A DNA stretch of 16,977 bases from Hyphomonas sp. (GTDB lineage Bacteria > Pseudomonadota > Alphaproteobacteria > Caulobacterales > Hyphomonadaceae): positions 1 through 16,977 of the forward strand of contig JANSXJ010000036.1 in assembly GCA_024743015.1 (NCBI GenBank), written 5' to 3'. The notes beneath the pieces are model-generated. The model did no database searches and had not been told where the DNA came from. It saw only the letters and a program-made list of their open reading frames with translations. Shown in pieces: positions 1 to 14,833 of the stretch. Each line of letters starts with the position of its first letter. Position 1 is the stretch's first letter. A program made the position numbers and the translations under genes.

Positions 1-260
1 TCAGCGCCGGTCGGCGCCGCCAGTATTCCCGTGCGCGGGATCGACGCCGAATGGCCGGGACCCGGGTTTGCCGGGGCCTGGTTCACGAGAGCCCGTTTCC
101 GGTGTCAGCCGGACGCGCCAATCATGCCTTGAAACAAGAGAACATATTCATCGGGCAACAGTTGTGTGTGATGGAATATCAGGTCTCACGAGAAACCTCT
201 CCGAGAATCATTTTCCCACCCAGGAGAGCCCAGTTTTTGAAGTCCAGCGGTCCCGCAGTC
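1..260. other. Left-edge stretch without a convincing gene
   Basis: All three forward frames and one reverse frame are partly open here, as expected for GC-rich DNA, but none gives a recognisable protein. Forward frame 1 is open from the window edge to a TGA at 130-132 and could be the last 43 codons of a gene entering from the left; its sequence suggests no family. An imperfect inverted repeat lies at 182-197 (GGTCTC, 4-base loop, GAAACC, one G-T pair), just past the end of the minus-strand gene. It has no following T run in the minus direction, so it is not a clear terminator. Confidence 0.4.
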
Positions 261-1055
261 TTAATCTCCCGAACGAGGCTTATCATCGAACGGGGTCCCG
301 CGTGGCCCGCGCAAGAATTCCTCGAACGACGCAATTTCCTCATCAGAAGGCACAGAATCACTTGTCAAAAGTGCCCGGATGCCCTCAGCAATATCCCGGC
401 GGTTCACGGACCCCATGCTGTACTGCCCGTTCTCCAACTCGTAATCGAGCGCACCGCACCACATGTTAATCCGGCCATAACCCGGCCGCAGGGCGACAGA
501 ATTCCCCTTCTTCCAAACCTCATGCTTGGCCAGCGAGATTCGGATCGCTTCGAGCTGCACGAAGAGAATGTGTGTGCGTTTCAGGTCCCGGCGGATGGCA
601 TCGGTAATTCCCGGATCATCTAGCACTTCCTTGATCTGACCGGCCCGAAATTGCCGCCCGAAATGCTGGTAGCCATCGTCTTTCTCAAGTGCCTCACGCT
701 TTTGTTCGAGACCGCCGTTTTCAGCCCATTTGATCATCTCGCCGGCACGCTGCCGCCAGGTTCGCAGGAGTTCGTAGACGGCAAACAGCCACATCTGCGA
801 CTGGGCTGACAGGAAAGCTGCCTCCGGCACGGGCGTGCGTTCCTCGGCGACAAGCTTTTCCAGCACCTGGGCTTCTAGATTGGTCAAAAACGGATCGACG
901 ATCGCAAGATTAAAAGCCTGCATGCGCAGGAACGGATCGCCCCCAAGCAGGCGCAAGCCGCATAGCGCTGTGTTCAGCGCCGAAACATCAATGGCCTCCG
1001 CCCGTCCATAGGGAGGCCCGTCATCGTGCTGATCCAGGTCGTCCTGTTCGTCCAT
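261..1055 (-). CDS. Hypothetical helical protein, unknown function
   Basis: I do not recognise this 264-residue protein. It looks cytoplasmic, with no signal peptide or membrane segment. The N-terminus is acidic (many D and E in the first 15 residues), the middle is predicted mainly alpha-helical with W/Y/F-rich helices around residues 85-105, and the C-terminal 25 residues are charged. An R-x5-H pattern lies in a helix near residues 172-178. It superficially recalls the R-x4-6-H motif of HEPN ribonucleases but lacks the usual polar residue after R, so a HEPN call is only speculation. The ATG is well placed: GGAGGG on the minus strand (1062-1067) sits 6 bases upstream. It is transcribed divergently from the STAS-like operon and shares its 141-base control region, so it may be functionally linked to it. 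The stop is TAA. Confidence 0.75.
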   Translation of the reverse strand: MDEQDDLDQHDDGPPYGRAEAIDVSALNTALCGLRLLGGDPFLRMQAFNLAIVDPFLTNLEAQVLEKLVAEERTPVPEAAFLSAQSQMWLFAVYELLRTWRQRAGEMIKWAENGGLEQKREALEKDDGYQHFGRQFRAGQIKEVLDDPGITDAIRRDLKRTHILFVQLEAIRISLAKHEVWKKGNSVALRPGYGRINMWCGALDYELENGQYSMGSVNRRDIAEGIRALLTSDSVPSDEEIASFEEFLRGPRGTPFDDKPRSGD

Positions 1056-1135
1056 AGCGCGCCCTCCAAAGCGACAAAGTGCTCCCGCCAGCCGGAAACG
1101 CTGCGATGCCCGATATACAGTAGATCATCTCGCCC

Positions 1136-1164
1136 TTGACACAGGATCGGCCAAGGATTATCTA
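1136..1164 (+). promoter_or_regulatory. Sigma70-type promoter of the STAS-like operon
   Basis: A perfect -35 box TTGACA (1136-1141) is followed after exactly 17 bases by TATCTA (1159-1164), four of six matches to TATAAT. It lies 32 bases upstream of the ATG at 1197, so transcription would start near 1171 and give a leader of about 25 bases. It is the clearest promoter in the window and reads into the four-gene cassette. Confidence 0.65.
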
Positions 1165-1165
1165 T

Positions 1166-1184
1166 CTCACGTTCACCACGTGAG
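1166..1184 (+). promoter_or_regulatory. Inverted repeat (operator or RBS-masking hairpin)
   Basis: CTCACGT (1166-1172) and ACGTGAG (1178-1184) form a perfect 7-bp inverted repeat around a 5-base centre. It starts 1 base after the -10 box, covering the expected transcription start, as expected for a repressor operator. Its right arm overlaps the Shine-Dalgarno GTGAGGA (1180-1186), so in RNA the same repeat could mask the ribosome site if transcription starts at or before 1166. Which role applies cannot be told from sequence. The winged-helix protein encoded next is a natural candidate for autoregulation. Confidence 0.5.
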
Positions 1185-1196
1185 GACTGTGACATC

Positions 1197-1757
1197 ATGA
1201 AGATCGACCTGCAAGACCTCTGCGGCAGCGCTGTCCTGGCAGGCGCCCTGAGCGGCAGGACGGCGCTGAACCGGCTGCTGACACACACAGCGCAGGAACC
1301 GGTCGGCCCCGAACCCGTCTTCCTTGATTTTTCAGGAATTGAGGTCGCAACGGCAAGCTTCCTGCGAGAAAGTGTGCTCGCCTTCCGAGACATCATCCGG
1401 GGCCGGCGCTCCGCCTTTTATCCGGTAGTGGCGAATGCAGGCGAAGTTGTTCGCGATGAACTAATGGAGCTCCTACGGCCGCGCGGTGATGTGCTGATGA
1501 CCTGCACCCTCACAGATGACGGCGCCGTCCGGAACGCGGTTCCGCTCGGCGAGCTCGACCCGAAACAGGGCCTGACTTTCGACCTCGTGCGTCAGCTCGG
1601 CGAAACCGACGCGGGCGCGCTGATGCGAGGCTACGGCGAAAGCGAGGGACTAAAGCACACAACGGCCTGGAACAACCGGCTCGCGGCGCTGGCAGCGCGC
1701 GGCCTGATTATCGAACAGAGCCACGGACGGGCGAAGCGTTACCGCCCGATATTCTAA
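1197..1757 (+). CDS. STAS-like domain protein with C-terminal winged helix
   Basis: This 186-residue protein has two parts. Residues about 38-115 resemble the STAS-like (DUF4325-type) fold: a strand ending in LDFSGIEVA (43-51), a helix with S54 and FLRES, then a second strand YPVVAN (75-80). SpoIIAA-type STAS proteins carry their phosphorylatable serine at a similar strand-helix junction, so S54 or S59 are candidates, unproven. Residues about 124-184 look like a winged helix-turn-helix, with TTAWNNRLAALAARGLI as recognition region and a basic wing (GRAKRYR). The likely role is a regulatory partner of the GHKL ATPase three genes downstream, possibly with DNA binding. It is the first gene of the cassette, 12 bases from the next. 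The ATG at 1197 has GAGGA (1182-1186) 10 bases upstream. The domain assignment is by motif recognition only. Confidence 0.7.
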   Translation: MKIDLQDLCGSAVLAGALSGRTALNRLLTHTAQEPVGPEPVFLDFSGIEVATASFLRESVLAFRDIIRGRRSAFYPVVANAGEVVRDELMELLRPRGDVLMTCTLTDDGAVRNAVPLGELDPKQGLTFDLVRQLGETDAGALMRGYGESEGLKHTTAWNNRLAALAARGLIIEQSHGRAKRYRPIF

Positions 1758-1769
1758 AGGACACTGACC

Positions 1770-2117
1770 ATGGGCGCGGAGTTCATTGAAAAAGCCACGC
1801 CAGGCTTCAGGAAGAGTTGGGACAGGGCGCGCACTGCCCTTGCTACAGCGGACCTTTTCACGCGCGCGCCGGATTGTGCCGCCCGCACGGCCGCAGCAGA
1901 TATCATCGGCAACACCCGGCTTTCAGTGGGCGATCAGCTAACCGTCGAAGCGCAGGGCGGAACCTTGATCGCAAGGCGCGGCCATAGCGATGTCGCACGG
2001 TTCACGAGCCCGTCCCCCGATCTTGTTAGAGCGGTAGAATCCTCCTGCGGGATCGCCAAGGGCACTGTCGCGCAAATCCATTCCCTCGCCGGTGTTGCGG
2101 AGATTTCCTTATGTTGA
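1770..2117 (+). CDS. Small beta-rich protein of unknown function
   Basis: This is an unrecognised 115-residue soluble protein. The first 45 residues are mixed and mostly helical. Residues about 50-115 alternate hydrophobic and polar residues in short strands with glycine turns (GDQLTVEAQGGTLIARRG, then a helix, then GIAKGTVAQIHSLAGVAEI), suggesting a small beta-barrel or SH3/HIRAN-like fold; no family can be named with confidence. AAAGGA sits 7 bases before the ATG. Its 3' end overlaps the next gene by 7 bases (ATGTTGA), so the two are translationally coupled and probably made in fixed ratio. Its position between the STAS-like and cysteine-rich genes suggests an accessory or adaptor subunit. 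Confidence 0.7.
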   Translation: MGAEFIEKATPGFRKSWDRARTALATADLFTRAPDCAARTAAADIIGNTRLSVGDQLTVEAQGGTLIARRGHSDVARFTSPSPDLVRAVESSCGIAKGTVAQIHSLAGVAEISLC

Positions 2118-3301
2118 CAGAAGGTAAGCAGAGCCCGGCGGAGGGGCAGAAAACAGTCCCCGTCATCAATTCGGACCGCCGCCCGGACCGCAATCCCCGC
2201 CGTGAACGCCGACTTTGGCATGAGTCCGAACGAAAAATGGAGCCCCTCGGCTGCCGTGTCTGTCCCGACCGGCCTGTCTGCGGCGGCCTGAAACTCCGGG
2301 CCGCGTTCTTCGACTGTCTCCAGTTCTGTTGCGGCAACCCGGAAACCTGCGACCGGGTGTGTCGCAATCATCCGGAATTTGCGAACAGGGTGCGGGAAGT
2401 GGGCACGTTTAGCCTCGGCAATGTACCGCGCGCGTCGGCACTCACAGCACCGACACTGCCGCCGATGGTTCCGGTTATCTACCACCGGACGGCACGACAG
2501 AAGGCTGCTATCTGCGGCACAGCCGCGCTGCCCCTTTACAGAATGTTCGACCGCCGCACCGGAAGCCCGCGATTCACGATGCAGAACGCGCTCTGCGAAA
2601 ACTTCGGTATCCAGCCCGGTACGACGCTCCTGCTCACCGGCACTGACCGCGATCCGCCGCTCGAACGCTGGTGGGGGCTCGGCGAAGCCAAGCGAATTGA
2701 CATCATTCGGGCCATGAAATCTGCCGGGATCAGCCTGGTGACCACGCCCAATTACAGCCTGTTTATCGACCGACCGCGTCAGGATGATCTGCATGCGATC
2801 AAGCGGATTGCCATCGTGCACGAGGAATTTCTGCGGGAAGGCATGCCGGCAGCGCTCCATACAAATGGCCGTACCGAAGCCGATTTCGCACGCTGGGCGG
2901 AATATATCGCTGCGCGGCCGGAGATCACCCATATTGCCTATGAGTTCACCACCGGCACCGGCTGGGCAGGACGGCGGGAACAGCATGCGGCATGGCTTTC
3001 GGCCATGGCAGAGGCGGCGGCGCGGCCGCTTCATCTGGTGGTGCGCGGCGGCGCGGATGTCCTTCCGGTCCTTGCAACGGCGTTTGCCGGCGTGACCGTG
3101 CTGGACACCTCGATCTTCATGAAGACGATGATGCGCCGCCGCGCCTATCCGAAGTCCAATGCCTCGCTGGGCTGGCGCGATGCGCCAACGGCACCGGGCG
3201 CGCCCGTGGATGAGTTGTTCGCCGAGAACAGCCGCACAGTTGAAACGTGGGTGCGCGATCTTGCCGCCCCGCCGGATGATGGGGCGCGCATACGGGAATG
3301 A
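2111..3301 (+). CDS. Cysteine-rich, probable TIM-barrel-like protein (possibly DUF4417-like)
   Basis: This 396-residue protein appears to be the central unknown of the cassette. After a basic, low-complexity N-terminus (1-42) comes a dense cysteine cluster: C48-x2-C51-x5-C57-x11-C69-x3-C73-C74-x5-C80-x3-C84, suited to bind an iron-sulfur cluster or zinc. The rest (about 120-385) alternates strands and helices like a TIM barrel, with blocks such as LLLTGTDRDPP (173-183), GISLVTTPNYSLF (206-218), PAALHTNGRTEADFARW (246-262) and IAYEFTTGTG (275-284). This resembles DUF4417-type or tRNA-guanine-transglycosylase-like barrels in general layout, but I cannot assign a reaction. R254, E256, E278 and the D179-R180-D181 segment are candidate active-site residues by appearance only. 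GGAG lies 8 bases before the ATG, and the 3' end overlaps the GHKL gene by 4 bases (ATGA). Confidence 0.7.
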   Translation: MLTEGKQSPAEGQKTVPVINSDRRPDRNPRRERRLWHESERKMEPLGCRVCPDRPVCGGLKLRAAFFDCLQFCCGNPETCDRVCRNHPEFANRVREVGTFSLGNVPRASALTAPTLPPMVPVIYHRTARQKAAICGTAALPLYRMFDRRTGSPRFTMQNALCENFGIQPGTTLLLTGTDRDPPLERWWGLGEAKRIDIIRAMKSAGISLVTTPNYSLFIDRPRQDDLHAIKRIAIVHEEFLREGMPAALHTNGRTEADFARWAEYIAARPEITHIAYEFTTGTGWAGRREQHAAWLSAMAEAAARPLHLVVRGGADVLPVLATAFAGVTVLDTSIFMKTMMRRRAYPKSNASLGWRDAPTAPGAPVDELFAENSRTVETWVRDLAAPPDDGARIRE

Positions 3302-4131
3302 CGGAAGGGGCGCCGGATGCACTCGATTTCGCCGCCCTTGACGGGCTGGCATTTGCTGCCGAACGCGAGCGGCTGAACGGCCAGGCGATTCCGACGTTCA
3401 CGGCACGGGAGATAGGCCCGCTCTTCGAGTTCTCGCAACTGTCCGCGCGCGGTCTTCTGCCCGCCCCGCAATCAGCCTCTTTCCTGGCGCTGGACGGCCT
3501 CGCCCCCCTCATTGAAGCCATGGAAAACGGCACCGGCCAGTGGGTTGCCCCCGGCGCGGCCAATATGGGGTTCCTCAGAACACGAACGACACCGCCTGCC
3601 GATCCCGTCTGGACAGGATTTGGACTGGCGGCACAAAAGGCGGCTACAGCCTCCGGCTTCCCGCGTGCGATTGCGGCCCAGCTCGCCGCTGCGCTGGGTG
3701 AGCTGCACAGCAATATCTATGAACATGCACAGGCGCCGGATACCGGCGTGATCGCCTTTCGCGCTGAGCCGGGGCGGTTTGAGTTTGTCGTTGCCGATCA
3801 CGGCATCGGTGTGCTGGAGAGCCTGCGCAGCGCGGCCGCCTACACACAGCTTGATGACCATGGAGAAGCGCTCAGGCTCACTCTGACGGACGGTGTGTCG
3901 CGCTATGGCGCCGATACAGGGCGCGGACACGGGTTCCGACCACTATTTGTCGGGCTTGCCAACCTCAATGGCGCACTGCGATTTCGCTCCGGGGATCATG
4001 CGCTTCTCATCGACGGGCGGAACCCAAGCCTCATGACCGCACGGACGGCACAGAAACCTGCTATGCAGGGCTTTCTGATCGCGGTTAGCTGCACAACCGG
4101 TCGCGCCCGGCCCAACAAGCGGACATCATAG
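3298..4131 (+). CDS. GHKL-fold (HATPase_c) ATP-binding protein
   Basis: This 277-residue protein carries the Bergerat ATP-binding fold of histidine kinases, Hsp90, MutL and anti-sigma kinases. Visible motifs are the N box E135-LHS-N139-IYE-H143, the G1 box D167-HGIG-V172, and the G2-type loop GRGHGF (208-213). No phosphoacceptor dimerisation (HisKA) domain or membrane segment is seen. Residues 1-110 are a separate region of unknown fold. The closest analogy is a SpoIIAB/RsbW-like serine kinase or anti-sigma factor, fitting the STAS-like protein in the same operon as its partner; this pairing is inference. Its start overlaps the previous stop (ATGA). The gene ends 49 bases before the Fic gene. 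Confidence 0.82.
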   Translation: MTEGAPDALDFAALDGLAFAAERERLNGQAIPTFTAREIGPLFEFSQLSARGLLPAPQSASFLALDGLAPLIEAMENGTGQWVAPGAANMGFLRTRTTPPADPVWTGFGLAAQKAATASGFPRAIAAQLAAALGELHSNIYEHAQAPDTGVIAFRAEPGRFEFVVADHGIGVLESLRSAAAYTQLDDHGEALRLTLTDGVSRYGADTGRGHGFRPLFVGLANLNGALRFRSGDHALLIDGRNPSLMTARTAQKPAMQGFLIAVSCTTGRARPNKRTS

Positions 4132-4180
4132 CGACAGAAAGGGAATGGAAAAGTTCCTATCATCGTGATATTATTTAATA
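4132..4180. other. AT-rich gap before the Fic gene
   Basis: The last 40 bases (4141-4180) are only 12/40 G+C, and the ten bases before the Fic ATG are all A or T. A small ATCA-TCG-TGAT repeat lies within it. No good -35/-10 pair and no Shine-Dalgarno at normal spacing are visible. The Fic gene may use its own weak promoter, a leaderless start, or read-through from the cassette. Confidence 0.4.
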
Positions 4181-5419
4181 ATGTCAGAGGATGAACCGGA
4201 CATAGAAGTGGACATGAAAGCGGACGCGGAGGACCGGGGAGAGAGCCTCGGGCTGATGGAGCCGCTTCTCATCGGCGAAAGCGCAAAGCATCGCGCGCAG
4301 CTCAGCGACCTTGCGGTGGATCTTGCCGCAAAGTCCGCCGGCCTGCGCCGCAGCCTGCCGCCGGGTGTTGTAACGGCCCTGGCCGATCTCGTCCGGGCGA
4401 TGAACTGCTACTACAGCAACCTGATCGAAGGGCACGACACGCATCCGGTAGATATCGAGCGCGCTTTGAAAGGCGACTACAGCACCGACCCGGAAAAACG
4501 CAACCTCCAGCTTGAAGCCAAGGCGCATATCGCCGTGCAGCGCTGGATTGATGACGGCGGACTCGATGGCCGTACATTTACGGCAAAAGGGCTGCGCGAA
4601 ACTCACAGGCGATTCTGCGATCTGTTGCCCGGTGAACTGCTGTCGATCACACAGCCGCAGACAAAAGAGCGTATCCTGGTATTCCCTGGTGCCGTGCGCG
4701 CCCGTGACGTCCAGGTCGGACGCCATATACCGGTCAGTCCGGGTGCCGTCCCGCGCTTTCTTGCGCGTCTCGAAACCGCCTATGGCAAGCTCGGGAAAAC
4801 CGACGCCATTCTGGCGGCGGCAACGGGCCATCACCGCCTGCTATGGATTCACCCTTTCCTGGATGGGAACGGTCGCGTTGCCCGGCTTATATCCTATGCG
4901 GCTTTGAGAGAGACGCTGGATACGGGCGGTATCTGGTCTGTCGCGCGCGGACTTGCTCGCAACGAAAGTGCCTACAAGGCTCACCTCGCTGCCTGCGATC
5001 AGCCAAGACGCAACGATCTCGACGGGCGTGGCCATCTGAGTGAAGAGGCCCTGGCCGAATTTGCGGCCTTCTTCCTGAAGACCTGCATTGACCAGGTGGA
5101 ATTTATGGAAGGGCTCGTCCAGCCGGACCGGCTGCGCGACCGTATCCTGATCTGGGCGGAAGAAGAAATCCGCGGCGACCGGCTGCCGCCCCACGCTGGC
5201 ACGGTCATAGAAGCGGTACTCTATCGCGGCGAGCTGCCGCGCGGCGATGTCGCAAAAATAACCGGCACGGGCGACCGGCAAGCCCGCCGGATCACCTCGG
5301 CTCTGATTGAGCGAGAGGTCTTGACCGCAGAATCCACGAGGGCGCCGCTGCATCTTGCCTTTCCGGCCGCCCTCGCCCCCCGCTGGATGCCGGGGCTGTT
5401 TCCAGACAAGCCGTCATGA
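4181..5419 (+). CDS. Fic-family protein, class II autoinhibited (putative AMPylase)
   Basis: This 412-residue protein has the Fic active-site motif HPFLDGNGR (H224-R232). Fic enzymes use this motif to transfer AMP or another phosphate-containing group onto a target hydroxyl; all canonical residues are present. The inhibitory (S/T)xxxE(G/N) motif appears at S79-NLI-E83-G84, N-terminal to the Fic core, which defines class II Fic proteins and suggests an intact self-inhibited enzyme. Residues about 335-395 look like a C-terminal winged helix (ELPRGDVAKITGTGDRQARRITSALIE), a common partner domain in this subfamily. The ATG at 4181 lacks a clear ribosome site; an alternative ATG is at 4214 (residue 12), and both are upstream of all domains. 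It lies 49 bases after the GHKL gene on the same strand. The target cannot be inferred from sequence. It could be a free-standing stress or toxin-like gene rather than a cassette member. Confidence 0.9.
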   Translation: MSEDEPDIEVDMKADAEDRGESLGLMEPLLIGESAKHRAQLSDLAVDLAAKSAGLRRSLPPGVVTALADLVRAMNCYYSNLIEGHDTHPVDIERALKGDYSTDPEKRNLQLEAKAHIAVQRWIDDGGLDGRTFTAKGLRETHRRFCDLLPGELLSITQPQTKERILVFPGAVRARDVQVGRHIPVSPGAVPRFLARLETAYGKLGKTDAILAAATGHHRLLWIHPFLDGNGRVARLISYAALRETLDTGGIWSVARGLARNESAYKAHLAACDQPRRNDLDGRGHLSEEALAEFAAFFLKTCIDQVEFMEGLVQPDRLRDRILIWAEEEIRGDRLPPHAGTVIEAVLYRGELPRGDVAKITGTGDRQARRITSALIEREVLTAESTRAPLHLAFPAALAPRWMPGLFPDKPS

Positions 5420-5500
5420 TGGTATTTTGATCGTAGGCGGCGCCGCAGCCATTCGCCTTCCGAAGGGCCGACGCACCCAAACAGGCAGCGCATGCTGCCC
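5420..5500. other. Convergent intergenic region with short inverted repeats
   Basis: The Fic gene and the RloC-like gene end tail to tail here. The region holds the palindrome CGGCGCCG, the repeat CCTT-CCG-AAGG (near 5457-5467), and the stronger hairpin GGCAGC-GCAT-GCTGCC (5484-5499). No good T run follows any of them on either strand. Confidence 0.45.
5484..5499 (-). terminator. Possible weak terminator hairpin after the RloC-like gene
   Basis: A perfect 6-bp stem (GGCAGC/GCTGCC) with a 4-base loop begins 1 base after the TAA at 5501-5503. On the minus strand it is followed by TGTTTGGG, a short T-rich stretch. It could terminate the minus-strand cluster or protect its 3' end, but the U tract is too poor for a confident call. 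Confidence 0.3.
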
Positions 5501-8197
5501 TTAAAGGAGTACCGGTTCCAAGCCTTCCTCATAGGGCCGCGCTCTTCTCAGCTTTTTCCGGCGCTCATTTGCAGCGTCGAAAAACCTCTTCAGTTCGTTA
5601 AAGTCACGACGGAGATGTTCTGGCTCGGGTAGTTCAGGCGGCAGGTCTTCCGCCGGGTCATGGCCCGAATAGTGAGAACAGCGCTTCATGCCCTCAAAGA
5701 TTGCCGGATAGTCGTTTTCGGGATCGATGCAGGCTTCTTCGAGGCGCTGCGTCATGATCTCCGGGCGAAAGCGCTGAACAACCCGATTGAACAGGATATC
5801 TTCAACGACGCGCTCCCATGTGTCCCGCATTTGCGTATAGAGGGCGACCACAGGCGAACGAAAATTTTCGTCGGTATGGTCGTATCCGGCATTGATCAAT
5901 GCCTGAAGGTCCTGGTCGATCTCCTGTAGCCGCTCAGGAACGCTTTTCATCTGACGCGGTTTGCGTGAGTCGTCAATAATACCAAACTGGTCATTGCCCA
6001 AACTGCTCATCCATTCGGTGTGACAGGCAATACGGGCGCGCCGAGTTTCCGTCCGCAGCATGTGGTGAAAAAGAATGTTGTGCGTGAACACAATGACCTG
6101 CCGCCCCTTCGCTGCCTCTTCGGCCAGCCGTTCGGCAACAGCCTGCATGCGCGTATGGTCCAGGGAAGAAACGGGATCATCGACAATGATCCCGTGATCG
6201 CGGCCGAGTTCCCCTAACTCGGCCAGAAAACAGGCGAGCGCCAAGGCACGCTGCTCCCCTTCGCTCAGCACGTCGCTGTTATTGGCAATGCGCTGCTGCG
6301 CGGTCAGGGCGACCTCGACGACGCTTTCGGCGGCATCGCCGCGATCCGCCAGATTGAGCGGAATATGTGTGAGCCGCAGCGTCTTCAACTCGTCATTTAA
6401 TGCGGTTTTGAGTGCGGGGGTGAGGATTTCGCGTCGCCGGTCGGTGATACGGCGGGTGATTGCCGTAAGCCGGCATTCACTGCGACATGTAACCAAGCGA
6501 TGGCGCTCTTCAAGCTTGTTCCGCCGTTCAGCAATGATTTCGATCTCTTCGCTCAGGCGCTTCTGGTCGGACAGTTCGGCGTGCCGTACCCTGAGCGCGG
6601 CGATCGCATTCTCGTCCCGCTCGACGTCTTTCAGTTCGGCTATTTCCTGCTCAAGGCGGACGATTTCATCATCAATAAGCTGCGTCGGGGAAGCGGGCAA
6701 AGGCTCCAGAGCGTCTAGCCCGTCATAGGTGTTGTCCCTTAGGATACGTTTGACCGTTTCCAGCCTTTCCCCGGCCTTTTCGATAAAGGCTGAGATAACG
6801 GTCGCGTTTTGCTTTGTGGCATCGCTCAAGGCCGCGTATCCGGCGAGCAGCGTGTCTACCTCACGTTTCCCTCTTAGGGCGAGTGCTAAAACCGTCCCTC
6901 GAAGATCCTCGAAGATGCGTGTGGCGGCGGCGCTTTCTTCTGCTGCGCGTCCTGCAATGTAGCCATCGAACGCTGTCATACGCTGAACGGCTTGCTCATC
7001 CAAATCCTGCTGGCACAGTACGCAAATACCACCGGTGGCAAGCTGTGGCGGCTCCTTATCGGCAAAGACGGACGTTGCGAAATCGCGCGCATATAACAGC
7101 ATCTGCCGCCAGACTTCCGATCCCAGTTCGGGAATCGGCTGATCGCGAAACATGTCTCTTGCCGCCGCTTCGGCAGCCGTCGCTTTCGTTTGCGCGTCCT
7201 GCTGTTTATTGCGGGTATCTAGAATGGCGAGATCGCCAATATTATTGGCGGCTTTTGAGACTTCTTCTTTGATCGTTTCAAGGGCTTGTTTCGCGGTAGT
7301 CCGCAGCCGCATCAAGGCCGCCGGATCATTGGTAAGCGTTTCGGCTACGCGCTCGAGTCCAGCCTGTTTTTCTTCCGTCCATGTCCCGAGCGTACGCAAC
7401 TCCTGTTCGCTTGGAAGCTGGTCGAGAGCGGTCGCTGTAACGAGCTTGGCAATAGCCGCGTAAACGGTCGTTCCTTCGGTATATCCGGTTGGCAAAGGCG
7501 TGTTGACAGCGGCATTTACCGCCGCCTCCCGCTCTCTGAATCCTTGATCGAGGGCGCGGCACCCAAGCCCGAGCTTGTTCAACAGGTCGAGTTCATATGG
7601 CAGAAACTCGATCTTCCGTTCCTTGTCTACATAGACTCTGGCGCTCGCCGTGTCGAAAACAGAAATACGGGCCAGTTCTGCCGGGGCCTCCGCATCACCC
7701 GCCCAAATCCTGTCCTGCCTTGGCTGATCATCATCTCCGATGCGGAATGCCACTGCGATCTCAGGCGGTTCGCCCTGGTTCTCGTCATAAACATTGCCGC
7801 GGAGTTCGCCGGGACTCAGTGAACGGCACAACTGTTTCGTGATACGGCAGTACCCGCTCTTTCCGGAAGCATTGGCGCCGTAGATAAGTGTGACGCCGTT
7901 AACGGCGAAACGCAGCGGGGGCTGGTCGCCGGCAAGACGATCAACACGTTGAATAGGGCCGAGTGAGGCGAGTACGGTTTTTGGCTGATTGCTCGCCGCC
8001 TCGCTTAAATGTTCTGCTGCAAGGGGGATCGGCGCCGGCACGTTGTCAACAGGCAACCCGGCAGAATTCTCGATCTGAAGCCGCAATCCCGAGAGGTCAT
8101 CTTCTGTTAGTTCGCCGGATTGGGCGAGCCGGCGCAAGGCATCCTGCTGCCATTCGGGCCGGTTGGCCGTCCATTGAAGCAATTGTTCAAATGCCAT
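5501..8197 (-). CDS. RloC/PrrC-like AAA ATPase with zinc-hook candidate
   Basis: This 898-residue ATPase is of the AAA_13/RloC-PrrC type. Counting from the ATG at 8197: Walker A GANASGKS (107-114), an interrupted coiled coil, a CVLC zinc-hook candidate (392-395) mid-coil, more coiled coil (about 505-600), ABC signature LSEGEQ (644-649), Walker B with D-loop VDDPVSSLDH (672-681) and switch histidine in VFTHN (H706). RloC proteins couple such a Rad50-like core to a C-terminal anticodon nuclease with an Arg-Glu-His triad. Here an R-x3-E pattern (R809, E813) is followed 29 residues later by H842, similar in spacing to PrrC, but I cannot confirm homology of this end. The start is set by GGGGAG (8205-8210), 7 bases before the ATG; an in-frame TTG at 8236 lacks such support. 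It follows the SbcC-like gene after 98 bases. Confidence 0.8.
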   Translation of the reverse strand: MAFEQLLQWTANRPEWQQDALRRLAQSGELTEDDLSGLRLQIENSAGLPVDNVPAPIPLAAEHLSEAASNQPKTVLASLGPIQRVDRLAGDQPPLRFAVNGVTLIYGANASGKSGYCRITKQLCRSLSPGELRGNVYDENQGEPPEIAVAFRIGDDDQPRQDRIWAGDAEAPAELARISVFDTASARVYVDKERKIEFLPYELDLLNKLGLGCRALDQGFREREAAVNAAVNTPLPTGYTEGTTVYAAIAKLVTATALDQLPSEQELRTLGTWTEEKQAGLERVAETLTNDPAALMRLRTTAKQALETIKEEVSKAANNIGDLAILDTRNKQQDAQTKATAAEAAARDMFRDQPIPELGSEVWRQMLLYARDFATSVFADKEPPQLATGGICVLCQQDLDEQAVQRMTAFDGYIAGRAAEESAAATRIFEDLRGTVLALALRGKREVDTLLAGYAALSDATKQNATVISAFIEKAGERLETVKRILRDNTYDGLDALEPLPASPTQLIDDEIVRLEQEIAELKDVERDENAIAALRVRHAELSDQKRLSEEIEIIAERRNKLEERHRLVTCRSECRLTAITRRITDRRREILTPALKTALNDELKTLRLTHIPLNLADRGDAAESVVEVALTAQQRIANNSDVLSEGEQRALALACFLAELGELGRDHGIIVDDPVSSLDHTRMQAVAERLAEEAAKGRQVIVFTHNILFHHMLRTETRRARIACHTEWMSSLGNDQFGIIDDSRKPRQMKSVPERLQEIDQDLQALINAGYDHTDENFRSPVVALYTQMRDTWERVVEDILFNRVVQRFRPEIMTQRLEEACIDPENDYPAIFEGMKRCSHYSGHDPAEDLPPELPEPEHLRRDFNELKRFFDAANERRKKLRRARPYEEGLEPVLL

Positions 8198-8295
8198 CGG
8201 TTCGCTCCCCATGTGCGGTGCATAATTCGACGACAAAAATCAGGCCTGGGGCAATGGCTGAAGTAGTCTTCATGACTCAATACCCCCCTTTATGA
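8198..8295. other. Gap between the SbcC-like and RloC-like genes
   Basis: This is the only sizeable gap in the minus-strand cluster. It holds small palindromes: ATGATCAT (8292-8299, overlapping the upstream stop), TGAAG-TAGT-CTTCA (8259-8272) and CAGGCCTG (8241-8248). No convincing minus-strand promoter or U-tract terminator is seen, so partial read-through from the operon is possible, with the repeats perhaps tuning it. Confidence 0.4.
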
Positions 8296-11004
8296 TCATG
8301 CCGATACCAGTTCTTCGCTGCTTCCGGGCTGCAACGACAACTGGCGGCCACCAAGCTCTTCGAACAGTTGCTCCCTGCACGTAAAAATAACTACCTGGAC
8401 GTTCCGGGCCGCCATATTGAGGATGTCGAACATGCGGCTCATCCGCCGGTCGTCCGAAAACACAAGCGCATCATCGAGTATCACTGTCGCCGGATGACCC
8501 TGTTCGACCAGCATTTCCGCAAAGGCGAGCCGGATCAGAACGGCGATCTGTTCCTGGGTTCCCATGCTGAGATGATGAAAGGCTTCCTCGTAGCCCGCCT
8601 CCCTGACCACGCCGACGATGTGCAGGTTTTCGTCGATCGTGATTTCCGCGCCCGGAAACAGGAGCTGCAAATACGGCCGGACGCGCTTGAGTACCGGCGA
8701 TAGATACCGTTCCTTGGCGTCCTGCTCGGCAGCACGCAACGTTGACAGCAAGAGGCTGAGAACTTGCACCTCGCGCGCTGAGCGGCGACGTTCTTCCTCG
8801 CTGAATTCCAGCTCACGCGCTTTTTGCTGAATGGCCTCATCAAGGCCGGCGCCTTCCAGCGCTTCCACATGCGACCGGAGCCCGGCTATCTTCTCCTTGA
8901 GATTACCGCGCTTTTCGCGCCTGTCCTGTATGGCCTTGTCAAGACGGGCGATGCGGGCCTCCAGTTGCGGGATTGTCTCGTCCGTGCGCTGCACCTCCAG
9001 ATTGGCGACGGCCGATCCCTGCTCAGACAATTCGGCCTGCGCGGCATCTATCCTTGCCTGAAGCTCATCGTCAGAAAATGCCTTTTCGGCGTCCGCAAGC
9101 TGACTCCGGCGCTTTTCCAACCCCTCCTTGCCGTCGTCATACCGCGCCTTGACGGTGCCAAGTTCGGTTTGGAGCCGGCTTAAAAGGGTCTCCGGACCGC
9201 CAAGCGCAGCCCGCGCGCTATTTACAGCGCTGCGCGCCTCGTCGGCATGCTCTACCGTGTCCCGCAATGCGGTTTCGGCTGCGGCCTGCGCCGGCAGCTT
9301 CTCAATGCCGAGTTCGACCATCTCCCGCGTCAGGAGTTGCCGCAGGCCATCGGTATAGTCGGAAAGCGCCTGCGCGCCGGCGCCATGATCGTCCGTGGCC
9401 GGGGCATGCAGTTCTGCCTCCTGACGGGCAAGCTCCGCCGTCTGCAAGAGCTTCAAGCGCCGGGTGTACTGATCCTCGGCATCATTGACGGTCTTGATGC
9501 CGCCCGCCTGCAACGCCTCCCTCAGCGCGGCCCTTGCGTCCCGCTGCTGATCGAGCAATTTGTCCCGGTCCTTGATAGCTGGCTCGACCGTGATCCGGCC
9601 GCGGTCGGGAATCGCAATCGTCACCGGCTCAACGGCCTGAACCGAAGGCTGCTCGGCCGTCAGCGCCTGACCGTCAATTTCGATGCCCGACAGACCTTCC
9701 GGGGCCATATCGAAAACGATGCGGGTAGCGGCAGCGCTCAGGCGGCTTTCGATAGTCTCCAGCCCCTTCGCGGCGCTGCGTATCGCTCCAACAACTTCGT
9801 CTGTAGCCAGGATGGCAGCAGCACCCTGCTGGGCCTCGCGCTGACGCTTCTCGGCGGCCTGTGCTTTGGCGCTGCGGCTCTCCAACTCTCGAATCCGGGT
9901 CTGCCGCTTTACTGCGTCCAGTAAGCGACGTTGCCGCGAAACGACTTCATCCGCCTCAGTGACCGCCACCTCGGCTTCGCGCGCACCGGCGCGCAACGCA
10001 TCAAGTTGCGACCGGGCGTCCTTTTCCTGCTGGCGTACCTCCGCCAGCCGTTGCCCGGCCTGTTCAACGGCTTTTTTTTCCACAGCAATGGTTTCTTTGA
10101 GGCCGGCACGTTCCGTTTGCGCTTTCTCGACTTGATCAAGATTGCGTTTTTTCAGTTCCAGGTCACTGGCGGCGGCCGCGATGCGCGCTTCCAGCTCGGC
10201 CAGTTGTCCGCGCCTTTTGCGCGCTTCCGTCAGTTCCGCCTGGTCGGCATGATCGCGGTCACCGGTAGACAAGCGCACCAGCGTATCCTGCGCTTCTTCA
10301 AGGTCATCAAGCGTGTTGGCAAGCTCCTGCCGCCGCGTGCGCAGGCCCTCAAGCTCGCTTTGCAAAGCGTCCGTTTTCTCAATGAGGTCTTTGTATGCGC
10401 CCCGCGGCTTGCCGTTGCTTGTGACCAGCTCGCCAAGCTGTTTGTCGATCGCCTGCGGCAAAGCTCGCCCACGGCGGCCACCGAGAACAGTGCCGACTTC
10501 GGATTCCAGGGCGCTGTGCAGGTTTGATCGGGCACTTTCGGGAAGATCGAGCGCGCCGAAGGACTGCCCTTGCTGTACCCAGAGGACATTCCACATGCCG
10601 AGCGTTTCAGCTTTAGCACCGGTCTTGCCGGGCTCGTCAAAGCCGAGCAGGCCGCGCAGCATGTCCTCGGCGGCATCGCCTTCAAGCGTGCGCCCGTCTG
10701 GACATGACAGGCGGGCATAGGGCTTTTTTACAAACCGCTTGGTCACCCGGTAGACGCCGTCATCAAGCTCGAACGCCAGTTCGACAACCGGCCCGGCCTG
10801 GTTGCGGTCATTCTGCAAGGCGACGATGGGCTGCGCCTTTGAGCTGTACTTTTCGAACAGGGCCGCGCGCAGGGCATCGAGAAGGGTTGATTTGCCCATC
10901 TCATTGGGACCGACGACGACATTCAGGCCGTCCTCAATGCCGTCGAGCCGCGTCGGCGCCGTAAATTTCTTGAACTGGTTGACGGCAAGGGATCGCAGTT
11001 TCAT
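8296..11004 (-). CDS. SbcC/Rad50-like (YhaN-type) SMC ATPase without zinc hook
   Basis: This is a 902-residue SMC-family ATPase. The N-terminus has Walker A GPNEMGKST (32-40) and a Q-loop region WVQQGQSF (142-149). Long charged coiled coils cover roughly residues 190-420 and 485-770. The C-terminal lobe has the signature-like LSMGTQEQ (812-819, in place of LSGGQ), Walker B VILDD (841-845) and a SDD D-loop (850-852). Between the coils, where SbcC and Rad50 carry a CxxC zinc hook, no CxxC exists; instead a beta-rich segment (about 426-478) rich in V, I, P and G is found, which fits YhaN-like relatives better than classical SbcC. It presumably partners the SbcD-like phosphoesterase just upstream, whose stop overlaps its start by 4 bases (ATGA); AGGCGG precedes the ATG. 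The expected role is ATP-controlled DNA-end or structure-specific nuclease action on invading DNA. Confidence 0.88.
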   Translation of the reverse strand: MKLRSLAVNQFKKFTAPTRLDGIEDGLNVVVGPNEMGKSTLLDALRAALFEKYSSKAQPIVALQNDRNQAGPVVELAFELDDGVYRVTKRFVKKPYARLSCPDGRTLEGDAAEDMLRGLLGFDEPGKTGAKAETLGMWNVLWVQQGQSFGALDLPESARSNLHSALESEVGTVLGGRRGRALPQAIDKQLGELVTSNGKPRGAYKDLIEKTDALQSELEGLRTRRQELANTLDDLEEAQDTLVRLSTGDRDHADQAELTEARKRRGQLAELEARIAAAASDLELKKRNLDQVEKAQTERAGLKETIAVEKKAVEQAGQRLAEVRQQEKDARSQLDALRAGAREAEVAVTEADEVVSRQRRLLDAVKRQTRIRELESRSAKAQAAEKRQREAQQGAAAILATDEVVGAIRSAAKGLETIESRLSAAATRIVFDMAPEGLSGIEIDGQALTAEQPSVQAVEPVTIAIPDRGRITVEPAIKDRDKLLDQQRDARAALREALQAGGIKTVNDAEDQYTRRLKLLQTAELARQEAELHAPATDDHGAGAQALSDYTDGLRQLLTREMVELGIEKLPAQAAAETALRDTVEHADEARSAVNSARAALGGPETLLSRLQTELGTVKARYDDGKEGLEKRRSQLADAEKAFSDDELQARIDAAQAELSEQGSAVANLEVQRTDETIPQLEARIARLDKAIQDRREKRGNLKEKIAGLRSHVEALEGAGLDEAIQQKARELEFSEEERRRSAREVQVLSLLLSTLRAAEQDAKERYLSPVLKRVRPYLQLLFPGAEITIDENLHIVGVVREAGYEEAFHHLSMGTQEQIAVLIRLAFAEMLVEQGHPATVILDDALVFSDDRRMSRMFDILNMAARNVQVVIFTCREQLFEELGGRQLSLQPGSSEELVSA

Positions 11005-12152
11005 CGCTGCACCGCCTGTAGCTTCATGTGTTCGATATAAAGCCGTTGCAGGGCTTCGGCGGCGATGCCGCGCTCGGCATCACCGCCCTGCTCGGTCAAT
11101 CTTTTGAGTTCGTCGGCGGCAGTGCGGACAAACCCGCCGCGATCAATCTGATCAAGGTCTTCTGGCGTGGGGCGCGGGAACAGGCGCCGGTCGTCAACGC
11201 GCATAAAACAGAACGCCGCTGAAACGCCGTCAACGATCTGCTCCTGGAAATACTGGCGATCCTCCAGGGACAGCGCGCCCTCGACGGCTAGATGAATCAG
11301 CACGCGGTCAAGGTCGGCAGCGGTGCCCCGCAGCTTTTCAGCGAGATGATCGATATCAGCCCGGCTGCCGATCTGCTCTTGATGGCGCTCCCAAGTGTAG
11401 TGTCCGGTTGGCAGCGGCATGACCGCAGGCGCCGCTCCCGGCCCCTCGATTTCAACGAGAAGGGCCTGACCGCCGTCGATCACATCAAAGGCGTCTGTTT
11501 CCGGCGTGCCGCTATACCAGCAGCGGTCATTGATTTTTTTCTGCCCGTGCCAGTCGCCAAGGGCGAGATAGGACAGGCCGGCCCGCGCGGGGCGGTCCGG
11601 AGCGATATAGTTGGGGACATCCTTGTCGTCGGAGCCGAAGCCGGTGATGGTGCCGTGGGCAAGCCCTACGCGCATCAGACCGTCAGGCAGGTCTGCGTCA
11701 TCCATATAAGCGGTCGGGTCTTCCAGCATACGGCGATGGTGCAGCGGCGCCGGCAACAGCGCGAATGAATCGTCCTCAAAGATCGCCGGCTCCGGCGCCG
11801 TATGAATACGCACGTTAGCGGGCAGCCCCTTGCGCCGAAGCTGATCCCAAAGTCCGTTCGGCCGGAAGTGATCGTGATTGCCTGGCATCAGGTGCCAGTG
11901 CACGCCGACAAAATTGCGCATCCGCTCAAGGGGCTGATTGAGGGAGCGCGGCGACAGGGCTTCCATGTCATAGACATCGCCGGCGACCAGTATGTGCCGG
12001 GCACCCTTCTCCCCGGCAAGCTCGCCAAGACGGGTTAATGCCCGCAGACGCGCGTCCTGAAGAAGCCCCATTGTCGCATCATCGACAAAGCGGAAGACCT
12101 TCCCGATCTGCCAGTCCGACGTATGTATCAGGCGCAGCGTCATCCCGTTCAT
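11001..12152 (-). CDS. SbcD/Mre11-like metallophosphoesterase (DNA nuclease)
   Basis: This 383-residue calcineurin-like phosphoesterase is of the SbcD/Mre11/YhaO type. Motifs in order: motif I D13-W-Q15 (SDWQIG), motif II GDVYD (58-62), motif III GNHDH (91-95), motif IV AHG (H166), motif V GDWH (199-202). These ligands bind two metal ions, usually Mn, for DNA phosphodiester cleavage. The first motif is normally D-x-H; here H is Q. The rest of the set is intact, so the enzyme is probably active, perhaps with altered metal use. The C-terminal third (about 250-383) is helical, likely the interface to the SbcC-like ATPase next in the operon. The ATG at 12152 overlaps the Res stop (ATGA), with AAGGA 5 bases upstream; a second ATG at 12143 is possible. 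Confidence 0.88.
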   Translation of the reverse strand: MNGMTLRLIHTSDWQIGKVFRFVDDATMGLLQDARLRALTRLGELAGEKGARHILVAGDVYDMEALSPRSLNQPLERMRNFVGVHWHLMPGNHDHFRPNGLWDQLRRKGLPANVRIHTAPEPAIFEDDSFALLPAPLHHRRMLEDPTAYMDDADLPDGLMRVGLAHGTITGFGSDDKDVPNYIAPDRPARAGLSYLALGDWHGQKKINDRCWYSGTPETDAFDVIDGGQALLVEIEGPGAAPAVMPLPTGHYTWERHQEQIGSRADIDHLAEKLRGTAADLDRVLIHLAVEGALSLEDRQYFQEQIVDGVSAAFCFMRVDDRRLFPRPTPEDLDQIDRGGFVRTAADELKRLTEQGGDAERGIAAEALQRLYIEHMKLQAVQR

Positions 12153-14833
12153 CCATCCTTGTACTGCCGAAAATTCGCCGCAAGGTCGGCAAAGGATTTG
12201 GGGCTGTAGCTGCCAAAGCTTTCTTCGTCCACGAACACGAAGTCATAGGTCACATCGGACTGCACCCGGTTGATGTCCTCGCACCACTGTTTGAGGCGCG
12301 CAGTCTTCAGGGGAACATCCAGGTCTTCCTGCCCCTTGGTCTCGACGATGACAATATACTTGTCATCCAGCTTGACGAGGAAATCAGGGTAGTAGTTCGA
12401 GATGTTACCGTCGGCGTTGACGTAGTCGAGCTTGAAATGGACCGCGAGGTAGTTCTTCGCGTAGGACACCACATCCGGGCAACTTTCCAGGAAGCTGGCG
12501 AACTGAAGCTCAAGATGGCTGTCGCCGATGACACGGTTGAACACGCTTTTTTTCGGGATGAGATAGCCCTGGTCCTTCACAACGAAAGGCCGCGTCTGGC
12601 GCAGCTTGATCGTGTCACGGATTTCAGCATTGCCCTTGTCGCGCACGGTCAGGGCGTTGATCGCCTTCTTGAAGGTCTCGATCAGGGTCTTGGTGGCCGC
12701 CAGTTCCGATAGGTTGCGCAGCGTGTTGGGATGTTCAAGATCGACGGCCTTGTCGAACAGCTCCGACTGAACGAATGACTTGATCTTGCCGAAGAGCACA
12801 TCATAGCCGCTGACCAGCCGCAGTTCCTTCATCACGGTCTGGGCAAAATAGCCGAGGACACTCCGGTAGTCGGCTGCGCCCGCCGTATCGAGGATCGTCG
12901 TGTGCGTCACCTCGCCGGTGGTAATGTCCTTGAAGACGATTTCGCGCTGCTCTTCCTCACTGAATTGCCGGCAGGGCACGCGCTGATGCTCCATGGCGCT
13001 GATGTCCAGATCGGCAAGGTTCTTGTACTCACGGTAGATGCGCGGGGTAAGCACCGGTATCTCAATATCCAGCGCCTCGATGTCCTTCTTGTCGTTCTCA
13101 TTGTCGATCTCGACGACAAGCGGCGTCTTCGGCTTGGTGCCTTCGCCCATGGCGGCGCGTTCAAGCTCCACGCCCTCGGCCTGGATCGATTCCACAAAAT
13201 CCATGAACGCATCCGTGCCGACGACGCTGACATATTCCTCCAGGCCGCCGGGATACATCTTGCGCAGGCCGCGCCCCAGCGTCTGTTCGGGGAGGATATT
13301 GCTCTTGGCTGAATAAGCGCGCAGGCCGACAATGGTGGTGACATTGCGCACGTCCCAGCCTTCCTTGAGCATCAGCACCGAAACGATCGCCTTGTAGGGG
13401 CTGTCCGGTTCATCGATCCTGTTGGACAGCTCGCGCAGCTTGTCCAGCTCTTCCTTCGCCTTGCCGGTCTGCGCCTCGGAAATTTCACCATTATTCTTGG
13501 TGTGGATGACCAAAACCGCGTCTTTCAGGTCCGGGTATCGTCCCTCCAGATATTCGGCCACGTCGTCGCAATTCTTGGTGTCGTCGGTCATGACGAACAA
13601 GATGGATTTCTTGCCGAGCTTTTCATGCTCGGCATACGCCTTGCGCCACTCGATTACGCCGAGATCGATATAGTCGGCATATTTCTCCGTGTATTTGGCG
13701 CTCTGGCGTTCGGACAGTTTGGCCCGGCTGGCGGCATCGGGCAGGACCGGGTGTTTGACAACATTCTGCGAAATCGCCTCAACCAGCGGATAGTCGGACA
13801 CGGTCTGTACAAAAATGGAGCCGTTGTTGTGCTTCGGCGTGGCCGTCACATCTACCTGTAGCGCAAGCTCACCGCCCTTTTGCAAAAGCCGGTTGTGGAT
13901 GTCCTCGATAGATTTGAACCAGGCCAGCTTGGAATCATGGATGTGGTGGGCTTCGTCGTTGAGCACCATCAGCTCGTCGATGTCGCGCACGATCATGCCG
14001 AGGTCCACGCTCGAATCCGTGGTAGCCCCTGTCGGACGCCTGCCGAAGAAGTAGTCCATCGTGTTCTCGTCATCGGGCGACGGCGGAATATCGTCGCCCG
14101 AATAGACACGGTGGATGTTGGTCAGAAAGATGTTGCCTGTGGGATGCGTGACGCGCACGTCGTCCTGCTTGTGTAGCGTGAGTTGAAAATCGTCCCGCCA
14201 GTTCCGCCCGTCGAATCCGTTGTCAGGGAGGACGGGATCGTCGAAGAAGATGCGCAGCCCCTGGAAGTCGTGATAGATGCGATCCAGCACGATGATGTTC
14301 GGGGCAATTACGAGGAAGTTGCGCGAAAGCGCGGAGTCCGGCTCGTAGAGCTTGTGAAAGAAGCTCCACGTCAGCGCGAGACTCATCACCTTGGTCTTGC
14401 CGGTGCCGGTCGCCATCTTGAGGACGAAACGCCGCCAGGTTTCGTCGAACATGCCGGCGGACACAGCGCCCGAGCTGTCAAAGCGCATCAGGTCGAACTT
14501 GTCCTTCACCCCGACGACATCATAGAGGTACATGATCGTCTCCAGCGCCTCACGCTGGGCGAAGAAATACTGAAATTCCGCCATCGTGCCGTCGGCCTGC
14601 GGCAGCAGGTGCGGCTGCTTGAACCACCAGTTCAGCAGGCTCTTGCTGGTATCGCACACGCCGACATAGCCGCCGTCGCGAAACTCCTTGACCTTCTTGC
14701 GGAGCTGGGCCACCAGCGGCGGCATGAGCTTGTCCATGCCGGTTTCGCGCAGCGCCTCGTCCGCCGGGAACCAGCGTATCGCAGGATCGAGGATCGCGTG
14801 CGGTGAATCGGGAAAGTCCGGGTGCAGCGCCAT
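12149..14833 (-). CDS. res: Type III restriction enzyme Res subunit (helicase-nuclease)
   Basis: This 894-residue protein has the type III Res architecture. An SF2 helicase core shows Walker A ATGTGKT (141-147), DEAH box D293-H296 (LNDEAHHIHD), motif III TAT (330-332, VTATPKH) and motif VI QTLGRGLRK (517-525). The C-terminal nuclease domain shows PD-(D/E)xK residues D817 (YYPDFLV), E831 and K833 (VETKG), with E775 as a possible upstream helix glutamate. In complex with Mod it would translocate or diffuse along unmodified DNA and cut near recognition sites. EcoP15I Res is about 970 residues, so the length is normal. The start is firm: the Mod stop and this ATG share a base (TGATG), with GGAGGGA upstream. 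It ends overlapping the SbcD-like gene by 4 bases. All catalytic motifs are intact. Confidence 0.93.
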   Translation of the reverse strand: MALHPDFPDSPHAILDPAIRWFPADEALRETGMDKLMPPLVAQLRKKVKEFRDGGYVGVCDTSKSLLNWWFKQPHLLPQADGTMAEFQYFFAQREALETIMYLYDVVGVKDKFDLMRFDSSGAVSAGMFDETWRRFVLKMATGTGKTKVMSLALTWSFFHKLYEPDSALSRNFLVIAPNIIVLDRIYHDFQGLRIFFDDPVLPDNGFDGRNWRDDFQLTLHKQDDVRVTHPTGNIFLTNIHRVYSGDDIPPSPDDENTMDYFFGRRPTGATTDSSVDLGMIVRDIDELMVLNDEAHHIHDSKLAWFKSIEDIHNRLLQKGGELALQVDVTATPKHNNGSIFVQTVSDYPLVEAISQNVVKHPVLPDAASRAKLSERQSAKYTEKYADYIDLGVIEWRKAYAEHEKLGKKSILFVMTDDTKNCDDVAEYLEGRYPDLKDAVLVIHTKNNGEISEAQTGKAKEELDKLRELSNRIDEPDSPYKAIVSVLMLKEGWDVRNVTTIVGLRAYSAKSNILPEQTLGRGLRKMYPGGLEEYVSVVGTDAFMDFVESIQAEGVELERAAMGEGTKPKTPLVVEIDNENDKKDIEALDIEIPVLTPRIYREYKNLADLDISAMEHQRVPCRQFSEEEQREIVFKDITTGEVTHTTILDTAGAADYRSVLGYFAQTVMKELRLVSGYDVLFGKIKSFVQSELFDKAVDLEHPNTLRNLSELAATKTLIETFKKAINALTVRDKGNAEIRDTIKLRQTRPFVVKDQGYLIPKKSVFNRVIGDSHLELQFASFLESCPDVVSYAKNYLAVHFKLDYVNADGNISNYYPDFLVKLDDKYIVIVETKGQEDLDVPLKTARLKQWCEDINRVQSDVTYDFVFVDEESFGSYSPKSFADLAANFRQYKDG

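Follow-up and report, generated by a model that had tools for sequence, protein, structure and literature searches.

What is the function of four tightly packed genes in which a STAS protein and a GHKL kinase, a pair known from bacterial switches, enclose a small beta protein and a cysteine-rich barrel protein? This question is raised by a locus of Hyphomonas sp. (GenBank assembly GCA_024743015.1, contig JANSXJ010000036.1), of which we analysed positions 1–16,977 of the forward strand (hereafter, the window). The four genes of this cassette lie on the + strand and encode a STAS protein with a winged helix-turn-helix (wHTH) domain, homologous to the repressor CapS and predicted to be an autorepressor (1197–1757; 186 amino acids, aa), a small protein modelled as N-terminal helices followed by a HIRAN-like beta-barrel (1770–2117; 115 aa), a protein with an N-terminal region of eight cysteines and, by model, a (beta/alpha)8 barrel like that of tRNA-guanine transglycosylase (TGT), distantly related to DUF4417 (2111–3301; 396 aa), and a GHKL kinase whose kinase domain is CapK-like (3298–4131; 277 aa). 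The genes and their junctions, a 12-base gap followed by overlaps of 7 and 4 bases, are as described in an earlier annotation made without database searches (the sequence-only reading). We propose, with middling confidence in the proposal as a whole, that the cassette is a self-repressed operon, de-repressed by a kinase of the CapS/CapK type, whose fixed payload probably acts on nucleic acids and probably protects against phages. The features computed for this argument were the recurring gene set, a palindrome, the homology to CapS and CapK, conserved residues, predicted folds and nearby defence genes.

The four genes recur together in distant bacteria

A search with the barrel protein found 696 relatives among 7,999 candidates scored, and 38 of these were aligned, which led to 51 loci from species-representative genomes. 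With three plasmid loci and the window added, the set analysed here comprises 55 loci (the window and L003–L056), in which the four proteins were sought by iterative hidden Markov model searches. All four were found together in 51 of the 55, counting L034, where the contig stops within the kinase gene. Among the four incomplete loci, L011 and L052 are cut short by the edge of their contigs, in L049 the barrel gene is 5′-truncated and lies beside a resolvase-like open reading frame (ORF), and L017 is without a recognisable STAS gene. In L017 (8600–9960), the beta, barrel and kinase genes are retained; the STAS gene was not found in the locus. All the loci were collected via the barrel, and therefore the frequency of STAS or GHKL relatives standing alone cannot be read from them.

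The cassette was observed in three layouts. In the 51 complete loci, the kinase gene is last and on the same strand in 26, convergent behind the barrel gene on the opposite strand in 23, and first in 2. Where the kinase gene is convergent, it shares up to 183 bases with the 3′ end of the barrel gene (L055, 11066–11965, − strand, and other convergent loci). In L055 the kinase was missed in the annotation because the record calls an opposite-strand ORF, WP_151613991.1, at that place.

Most of the loci are from Alphaproteobacteria, and others come from Gammaproteobacteria, Burkholderiales, Nitrospinota, Acidobacteria, Actinobacteria, Polyangia and Phycisphaerae; as many are metagenome assemblies, single placements, taken from the record titles, may be wrong. 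The barrel matched eight plasmid records, the three examined being from Aminobacter, Sinorhizobium and Planctomyces (the last at 29% identity). No barrel relative was found in the phage records searched with the barrels of the window and of Planctomyces; a contig of the IMG/VR viral collection (L057, 7055–9964) carries relatives of all four proteins together with an exact CTCAC-N9-GTGAG site. The distribution is sporadic: of 385 genomes sampled evenly from the class, 2 carry the barrel, one of them the window's own genome, and the same 2 carry the STAS protein, and the barrel was present in 0 of 60 relatives.

After 14 near-duplicate or cut loci had been dropped from the 51 complete ones, the four proteins were compared by their pairwise distances over the remaining 37. 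These distances correlate at 0.899–0.935, and none of 999 permutations was as high for any pair; a common history of the species may account for part of this correlation. The gene string is not a chance association. The neighbourhood comparison suggested by the sequence-only reading thus came out in its favour, the four genes recurring jointly across distant taxa and near a variety of defence genes, and the best account of these data is that of a mobile, self-contained inducible operon that exists in three layouts across distant bacteria.

The regulatory half matches CapS and CapK

The sequence-only reading could not match the cassette to a named system. For its regulatory half we now find a match. 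CapK and CapS (Controller of associated/adjacent pathways) are a GHKL kinase and the STAS-wHTH repressor that it phosphorylates; they respond to DNA damage and control adjacent, varied immune operons (PMC13373217, EMBO J, June 2026).

With the STAS protein, Pfam gave DUF4325 (STAS-like) at E 0.0012, below the cut-off, and a profile search of the PDB gave 9z71 (E 0.025) and 9z72 (E 0.09), which are weak, yet the sole matches covering both domains. The 9z71 fragment led to the plasmid-borne protein WP_001567865.1, with a CapK-sized gene upstream, and this is the accession of Enterobacter roggenkampii CapS (PMC13373217). In the comparison by hhalign with a profile of five CapS proteins, the probability was 95.8% (E 7.3e-9, 171 columns) and Ser54 was aligned on Ser54; by halves, the STAS domain alone reached 95.2%, and the wHTH alone was weak at 18.2%. 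Ser54 is invariant (37/37), and so are T156 and W158–L162 of the TxWNNRL stretch (37/37). The two proteins share collinear STAS and wHTH domains (~185 aa), Ser54, a palindrome at the repressor gene and defence genes nearby. To judge from its sequence, the STAS protein is predicted to be a CapS homologue that represses its own operon and accepts phosphate at Ser54.

The GHKL protein matched Pfam HATPase_c_2 (E 6.6e-7), and its kinase domain aligned with CapK at 97.3% (hhalign, E 2.3e-11, 109 columns). The GHKL invariants E135, N139, H143, D167/G169/G171 (DxGxG) and G210/G212 (GxG) are conserved in 35/35 sequences, and the E/N/H active-site residues are shared with CapK, including the catalytic Asn (N218 in CapK, N139 here). 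However, CapK carries an N-terminal HTH-STAS region with a sensor of single-stranded DNA (PMC13373217), whereas no such region is recognisable in the 277-aa cassette kinase, residues 1–126 of which gave no profile match to the N-terminal part of CapK or to the CapS STAS domain. Other differences concern the arrangement. The capK gene lies immediately upstream of capS, whereas the cassette kinase is mostly downstream or convergent; the CapS operator has TTAA half-sites separated by one or ten bases instead of CTCAC-N8/9-GTGAG; and a CapKS locus continues after capS with a varied immune operon, whereas the cassette encloses a fixed beta and barrel pair.

Since the regulatory half matches CapK and CapS, the switch most likely works by transcriptional de-repression and not by partner switching on a sigma factor, and de-repression of the CapS/CapK type is, in our judgement, highly probable. 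The pairing of a STAS protein with a GHKL ATPase noted in the sequence-only reading therefore stands, while the sigma-factor mechanism that it cited becomes the less likely one.

Other libraries added little. NCBIfam gave far-below-cut-off matches alone, for the first (STAS) and fourth (GHKL) proteins. PADLOC models (library dated 2023, E 0.01) gave none for the STAS, beta and barrel proteins, and their sole match to the GHKL protein was a weak DrmA (E 5e-4) over the GHKL domain. From PHROGs, the GHKL protein alone matched, to a family of unknown function. No description of the four-gene set was found in searches among open-licence PMC papers; the supplementary datasets of PMC13373217 could list relatives.

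A palindrome and a predicted promoter precede the STAS gene

Searching for palindromes ahead of the STAS gene, we found CTCACGT-N5-ACGTGAG in the window and related palindromes in other loci. The predicted operator of the window (CTCACGT-tcacc-ACGTGAG, 1166–1184, no strand assigned) is a 7-base inverted repeat with a 5-base centre, and the family half-sites are CTCAC and GTGAG. It had gone unmentioned in the earlier annotation. Upstream of STAS, CTCAC-N8/9-GTGAG is exact in 17 of 52 stretches and has one mismatch in 19 more, compared with 0.26% reaching one mismatch and none exact in random stretches of the same loci (n = 9,766). As the motif was derived from the same data, its rank among all inverted repeats with 5-base arms and the same spacing is the fairer control: in the same upstream stretches CTCAC occurred in 17 and the runner-up in 3. 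When the loci were grouped into 33 clusters (80% STAS identity, best member each, slightly longer stretch), 14 were exact and 13, 3 and 3 had one, two and three mismatches, respectively. The three-mismatch clusters are L013, L056 and the L036/L039/L055 group. These five loci have no CTCAC palindrome within two mismatches upstream of STAS, and other palindromes occur in such loci (L055 and L056, for example), which suggests, on sequence grounds, that the recognition code may have changed there.

Away from the STAS upstream sites, the 55 loci, 936,379 bases in all, contain 25 sites that are exact or have a single mismatch. In the window's 3.88-Mb genome, CTCACGTN5ACGTGAG is perfect once (1166–1184), with four other sites at two mismatches; a reversed control pattern had as many hits overall. 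No operator with at most one mismatch was found upstream of the convergent kinases in 21 of the 23 loci (L034 and L046, at contig ends, were excluded) or upstream of the kinase in the two kinase-first loci, and hence the repressor probably does not control the kinase in those loci. As the palindrome sits at the STAS gene, is rare elsewhere and is absent at the convergent kinases examined, the repressor most likely governs its own cassette and has few other targets, in line with the description of the system as self-contained in the sequence-only reading.

Ahead of the operator, a promoter was predicted on the + strand (1136–1164), with the −35 box TTGACA (1136–1141), a 17-base spacer and the −10 box TATCTA (1159–1164). 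The sequence-only reading had called it one strong promoter. The −35 box is indeed a perfect consensus, but the −10 box matches at 3/6 positions, and a strict consensus scanner did not list the promoter. We compared 30 cluster representatives, leaving out the three clusters without the palindrome. Their −35 box begins with TTGAC in 24/30, the best −35 starts 26–31 bases ahead of the palindrome in 26/30, and the −10 box mostly abuts or overlaps the palindrome. The promoter is probably real, because the TTGAC −35 box and its spacing to the palindrome recur in these loci.

The two enclosed proteins have HIRAN-like and TGT-like predicted folds

Neither the beta nor the barrel protein had a Pfam match at E 0.1. 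In the predicted model of the beta protein, residues ~33–115 have a HIRAN-like fold, which resembles the HIRAN domains of Rad5, HLTF and the C-terminal part of HamB (Hachiman). The comparison with HIRAN profiles by hhalign was weak, and a PDB sequence search with the beta profile gave low-confidence matches (best E 0.059). The beta protein differs in being a stand-alone small protein and in lacking the NxxD loop; this loop is present in 13/14 of the HIRAN sequences compared, and the hhalign alignment has a gap at that place in the beta protein. We describe the beta protein as HIRAN-like by its predicted fold. The weaker HIRAN case leaves our proposal unaffected, since this rests on the switch and the TGT-like fold.

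The barrel protein, termed barrel-like in the sequence-only reading, was modelled as a (beta/alpha)8 TIM barrel, and its nearest fold is TGT. The eight cysteines of its N-terminal region probably form a metal-binding module. TGT enzymes have two catalytic Asp residues and a C-terminal Cys cluster. Candidate counterparts of these Asp residues among 60 barrel proteins are D181, conserved in 60/60, and position 332, which is D in 38, E in 21 and S in 1. The Cys cluster is N-terminal, in contrast to that of TGT, and the similarity does not extend to sequence profiles: the hhalign probability of the barrel family against 30 TGTs was 0.4%, and a PDB sequence search with the barrel profile gave low-confidence matches (best E 0.013). 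The cassette further differs from TGT, DpdA (Dpd system) and Cap10 (type IV CBASS) in that its four genes include no queuosine or preQ0 genes.

A distant relation to DUF4417 (PF14386) was also observed. Weak matches were given by 4 of the 60 barrel family members (best 4.3e-6); the two matches with a score listed are both below the Pfam cut-off, and the window barrel itself had none. Several barrel relatives are named DUF4417 in the NCBI annotation; the window barrel differs from DUF4417 by its additional 8-Cys region. A DUF4417 family search in 299 genomes was uninformative, as the 14 controls gave zero matches too. A search of the main text of PMC13373217 gave no mention of transglycosylase, HIRAN or DUF4417. 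Phages encode fusions of DUF4417 domains with ParB-CTPase folds (PMC12704722), in Dpd systems a ParB-like ATPase accompanies the TGT DpdA (PMC12839542), and Cap10 is a TGT relative recruited to immunity (PMC11996544). The DUF4417–ParB fusions and the pairing of TGT with a ParB-like protein in Dpd, together with the TGT-like fold, make base exchange a testable guess, and we put forward base-exchange or glycosylase-type chemistry only tentatively.

Proposed mechanism and alternative explanations

The repression, induction signal, substrate, chemistry and phage protection that we infer would fit together as follows. By analogy with CapS, a dimer of the STAS-wHTH protein would bind the CTCAC-N8/9-GTGAG palindrome beside its own −10 box at rest and keep the operon nearly off. 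By analogy with CapK, the signal would most likely be DNA damage or phage replication, upon which the GHKL protein would phosphorylate Ser54 of the STAS protein, the dimer would separate and the operon would be expressed. The HIRAN-like protein would be expected to direct recruitment to ends or structures of DNA (or RNA), and the TGT-fold enzyme with its 8-Cys module to swap or take out a base in phage DNA or RNA or in host tRNA. The likely benefit would be anti-phage defence, a role that we consider somewhat probable. A more specific version is rather unlikely: a new anti-phage system whose HIRAN-guided enzyme of transglycosylase fold, de-repressed upon DNA damage, would exchange or excise a base at invader DNA ends or replication intermediates. 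Such a system would be an inducible, "offensive" relative of DpdA, which tags DNA, with a CapS/CapK switch and an operator code of its own. The present results extend a newly described immune switch to a family found in several bacterial phyla, whose operator code differs from that of CapS, and link an uncharacterised Cys-rich family (NCBI: DUF4417) by model to the TGT fold, with nucleic-acid base exchange as a concrete hypothesis. If the proposal is true, inducible bacterial immunity would gain a new effector chemistry.

The same predicted activities could also serve the cell's own DNA. In an inducible repair or damage-tolerance operon, the HIRAN-like protein would find ends or damage and the TGT-fold enzyme would remove or swap damaged bases. 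The response of CapK/CapS to DNA damage (PMC13373217), the occurrence of HIRAN folds in Rad5 and HLTF, and a promoter-palindrome layout compatible with an SOS-like response would all suit such a role, but the sporadic distribution, the carriage on plasmids and a viral contig, and the defence neighbours (counted without a control set) suit defence better, and we regard repair as unlikely. The published CapKS governs adjacent, varied immune operons (PMC13373217), and the neighbours of the cassette are varied and include defence genes. It might accordingly regulate a neighbouring defence operon, here the restriction-modification (R-M) cluster or the Fic gene, with beta and barrel as accessories. 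The rarity of the palindrome in the loci outside the STAS gene argues against this, as do the retention of beta and barrel in 51/55 loci despite differing neighbours and the promoter-like site that the Fic gene has for itself (4146–4174), which makes such a regulator quite improbable.

We consider a toxin-antitoxin module similar to VapKSC, where the STAS protein would hold the barrel or beta protein inactive until phosphorylation frees it, about equally improbable. VapS/VapC offers the precedent (PMC13373217), since VapKSC likewise bundles STAS and GHKL proteins with a payload of its own, in part of the cases near immune genes, and the cassette genes are tightly linked and overlapping. However, in VapS a short C-terminal region replaces the wHTH, whereas the cassette STAS protein has a wHTH-like C-terminus with the invariant TxWNNRL and a conserved palindrome. 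The VapKSC payload is the PIN nuclease VapC, whereas the beta and barrel models are HIRAN-like and TGT-like, with no PIN match (Pfam, E 0.1), and L017, which keeps beta, barrel and kinase without STAS, is hard to square with a barrel toxin that depends on STAS. Classical anti-sigma partner switching on a distant sigma factor, to which the combination of a HATPase_c_2 kinase with a STAS protein would point, is very improbable: the STAS protein has a DNA-binding-type domain of its own, a palindrome lies before its gene, and none of the four genes encodes a sigma factor, as the sequence-only reading had already stated. De-repression of an operon with its own payload therefore remains our preferred explanation.

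Genomic setting

The neighbours were sampled from 205 flanking ORFs of at least 200 aa within 6 kb, chosen mechanically in 34 representative loci without the window; 106 of the 205 were scanned, taken in random order up to a residue limit, ORFs above 1,400 aa being left out. At PADLOC E 1e-15, among the models listed (25 of 222), GajA (Gabija), AriA and Old matched at most 3 ORFs each, probably the same ORFs, type III R-M, DarG and ShosT 2 each, and PglZ and IIG R-M 1 each, all counted without a control set. Pfam gave AbiEii (2), resolvase (2), BrxL ATPase (1) and Tn3 transposase (1) amid ordinary enzymes. A KwaB-like protein is also among the flanking ORFs.

In the window, the cassette adjoins a Fic gene and a type III R-M operon, as the sequence-only reading had it. 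A 264-aa ORF on the − strand (261–1055), divergent from the cassette promoter, had no Pfam, PADLOC or NCBIfam match. The Fic-domain protein (4181–5419, + strand) begins 49 bases past the kinase stop. It is followed on the − strand (5501–16926) by genes for a type III-like methyltransferase, a BPTD_3080-like restriction subunit, an SbcD-like phosphoesterase and an SbcC/Rad50-like ATPase, with overlaps of 1 to 4 bases, and, 59 bases on, by an AAA_13/PDC-S06 ATPase; the whole run looks like one composite restriction operon.

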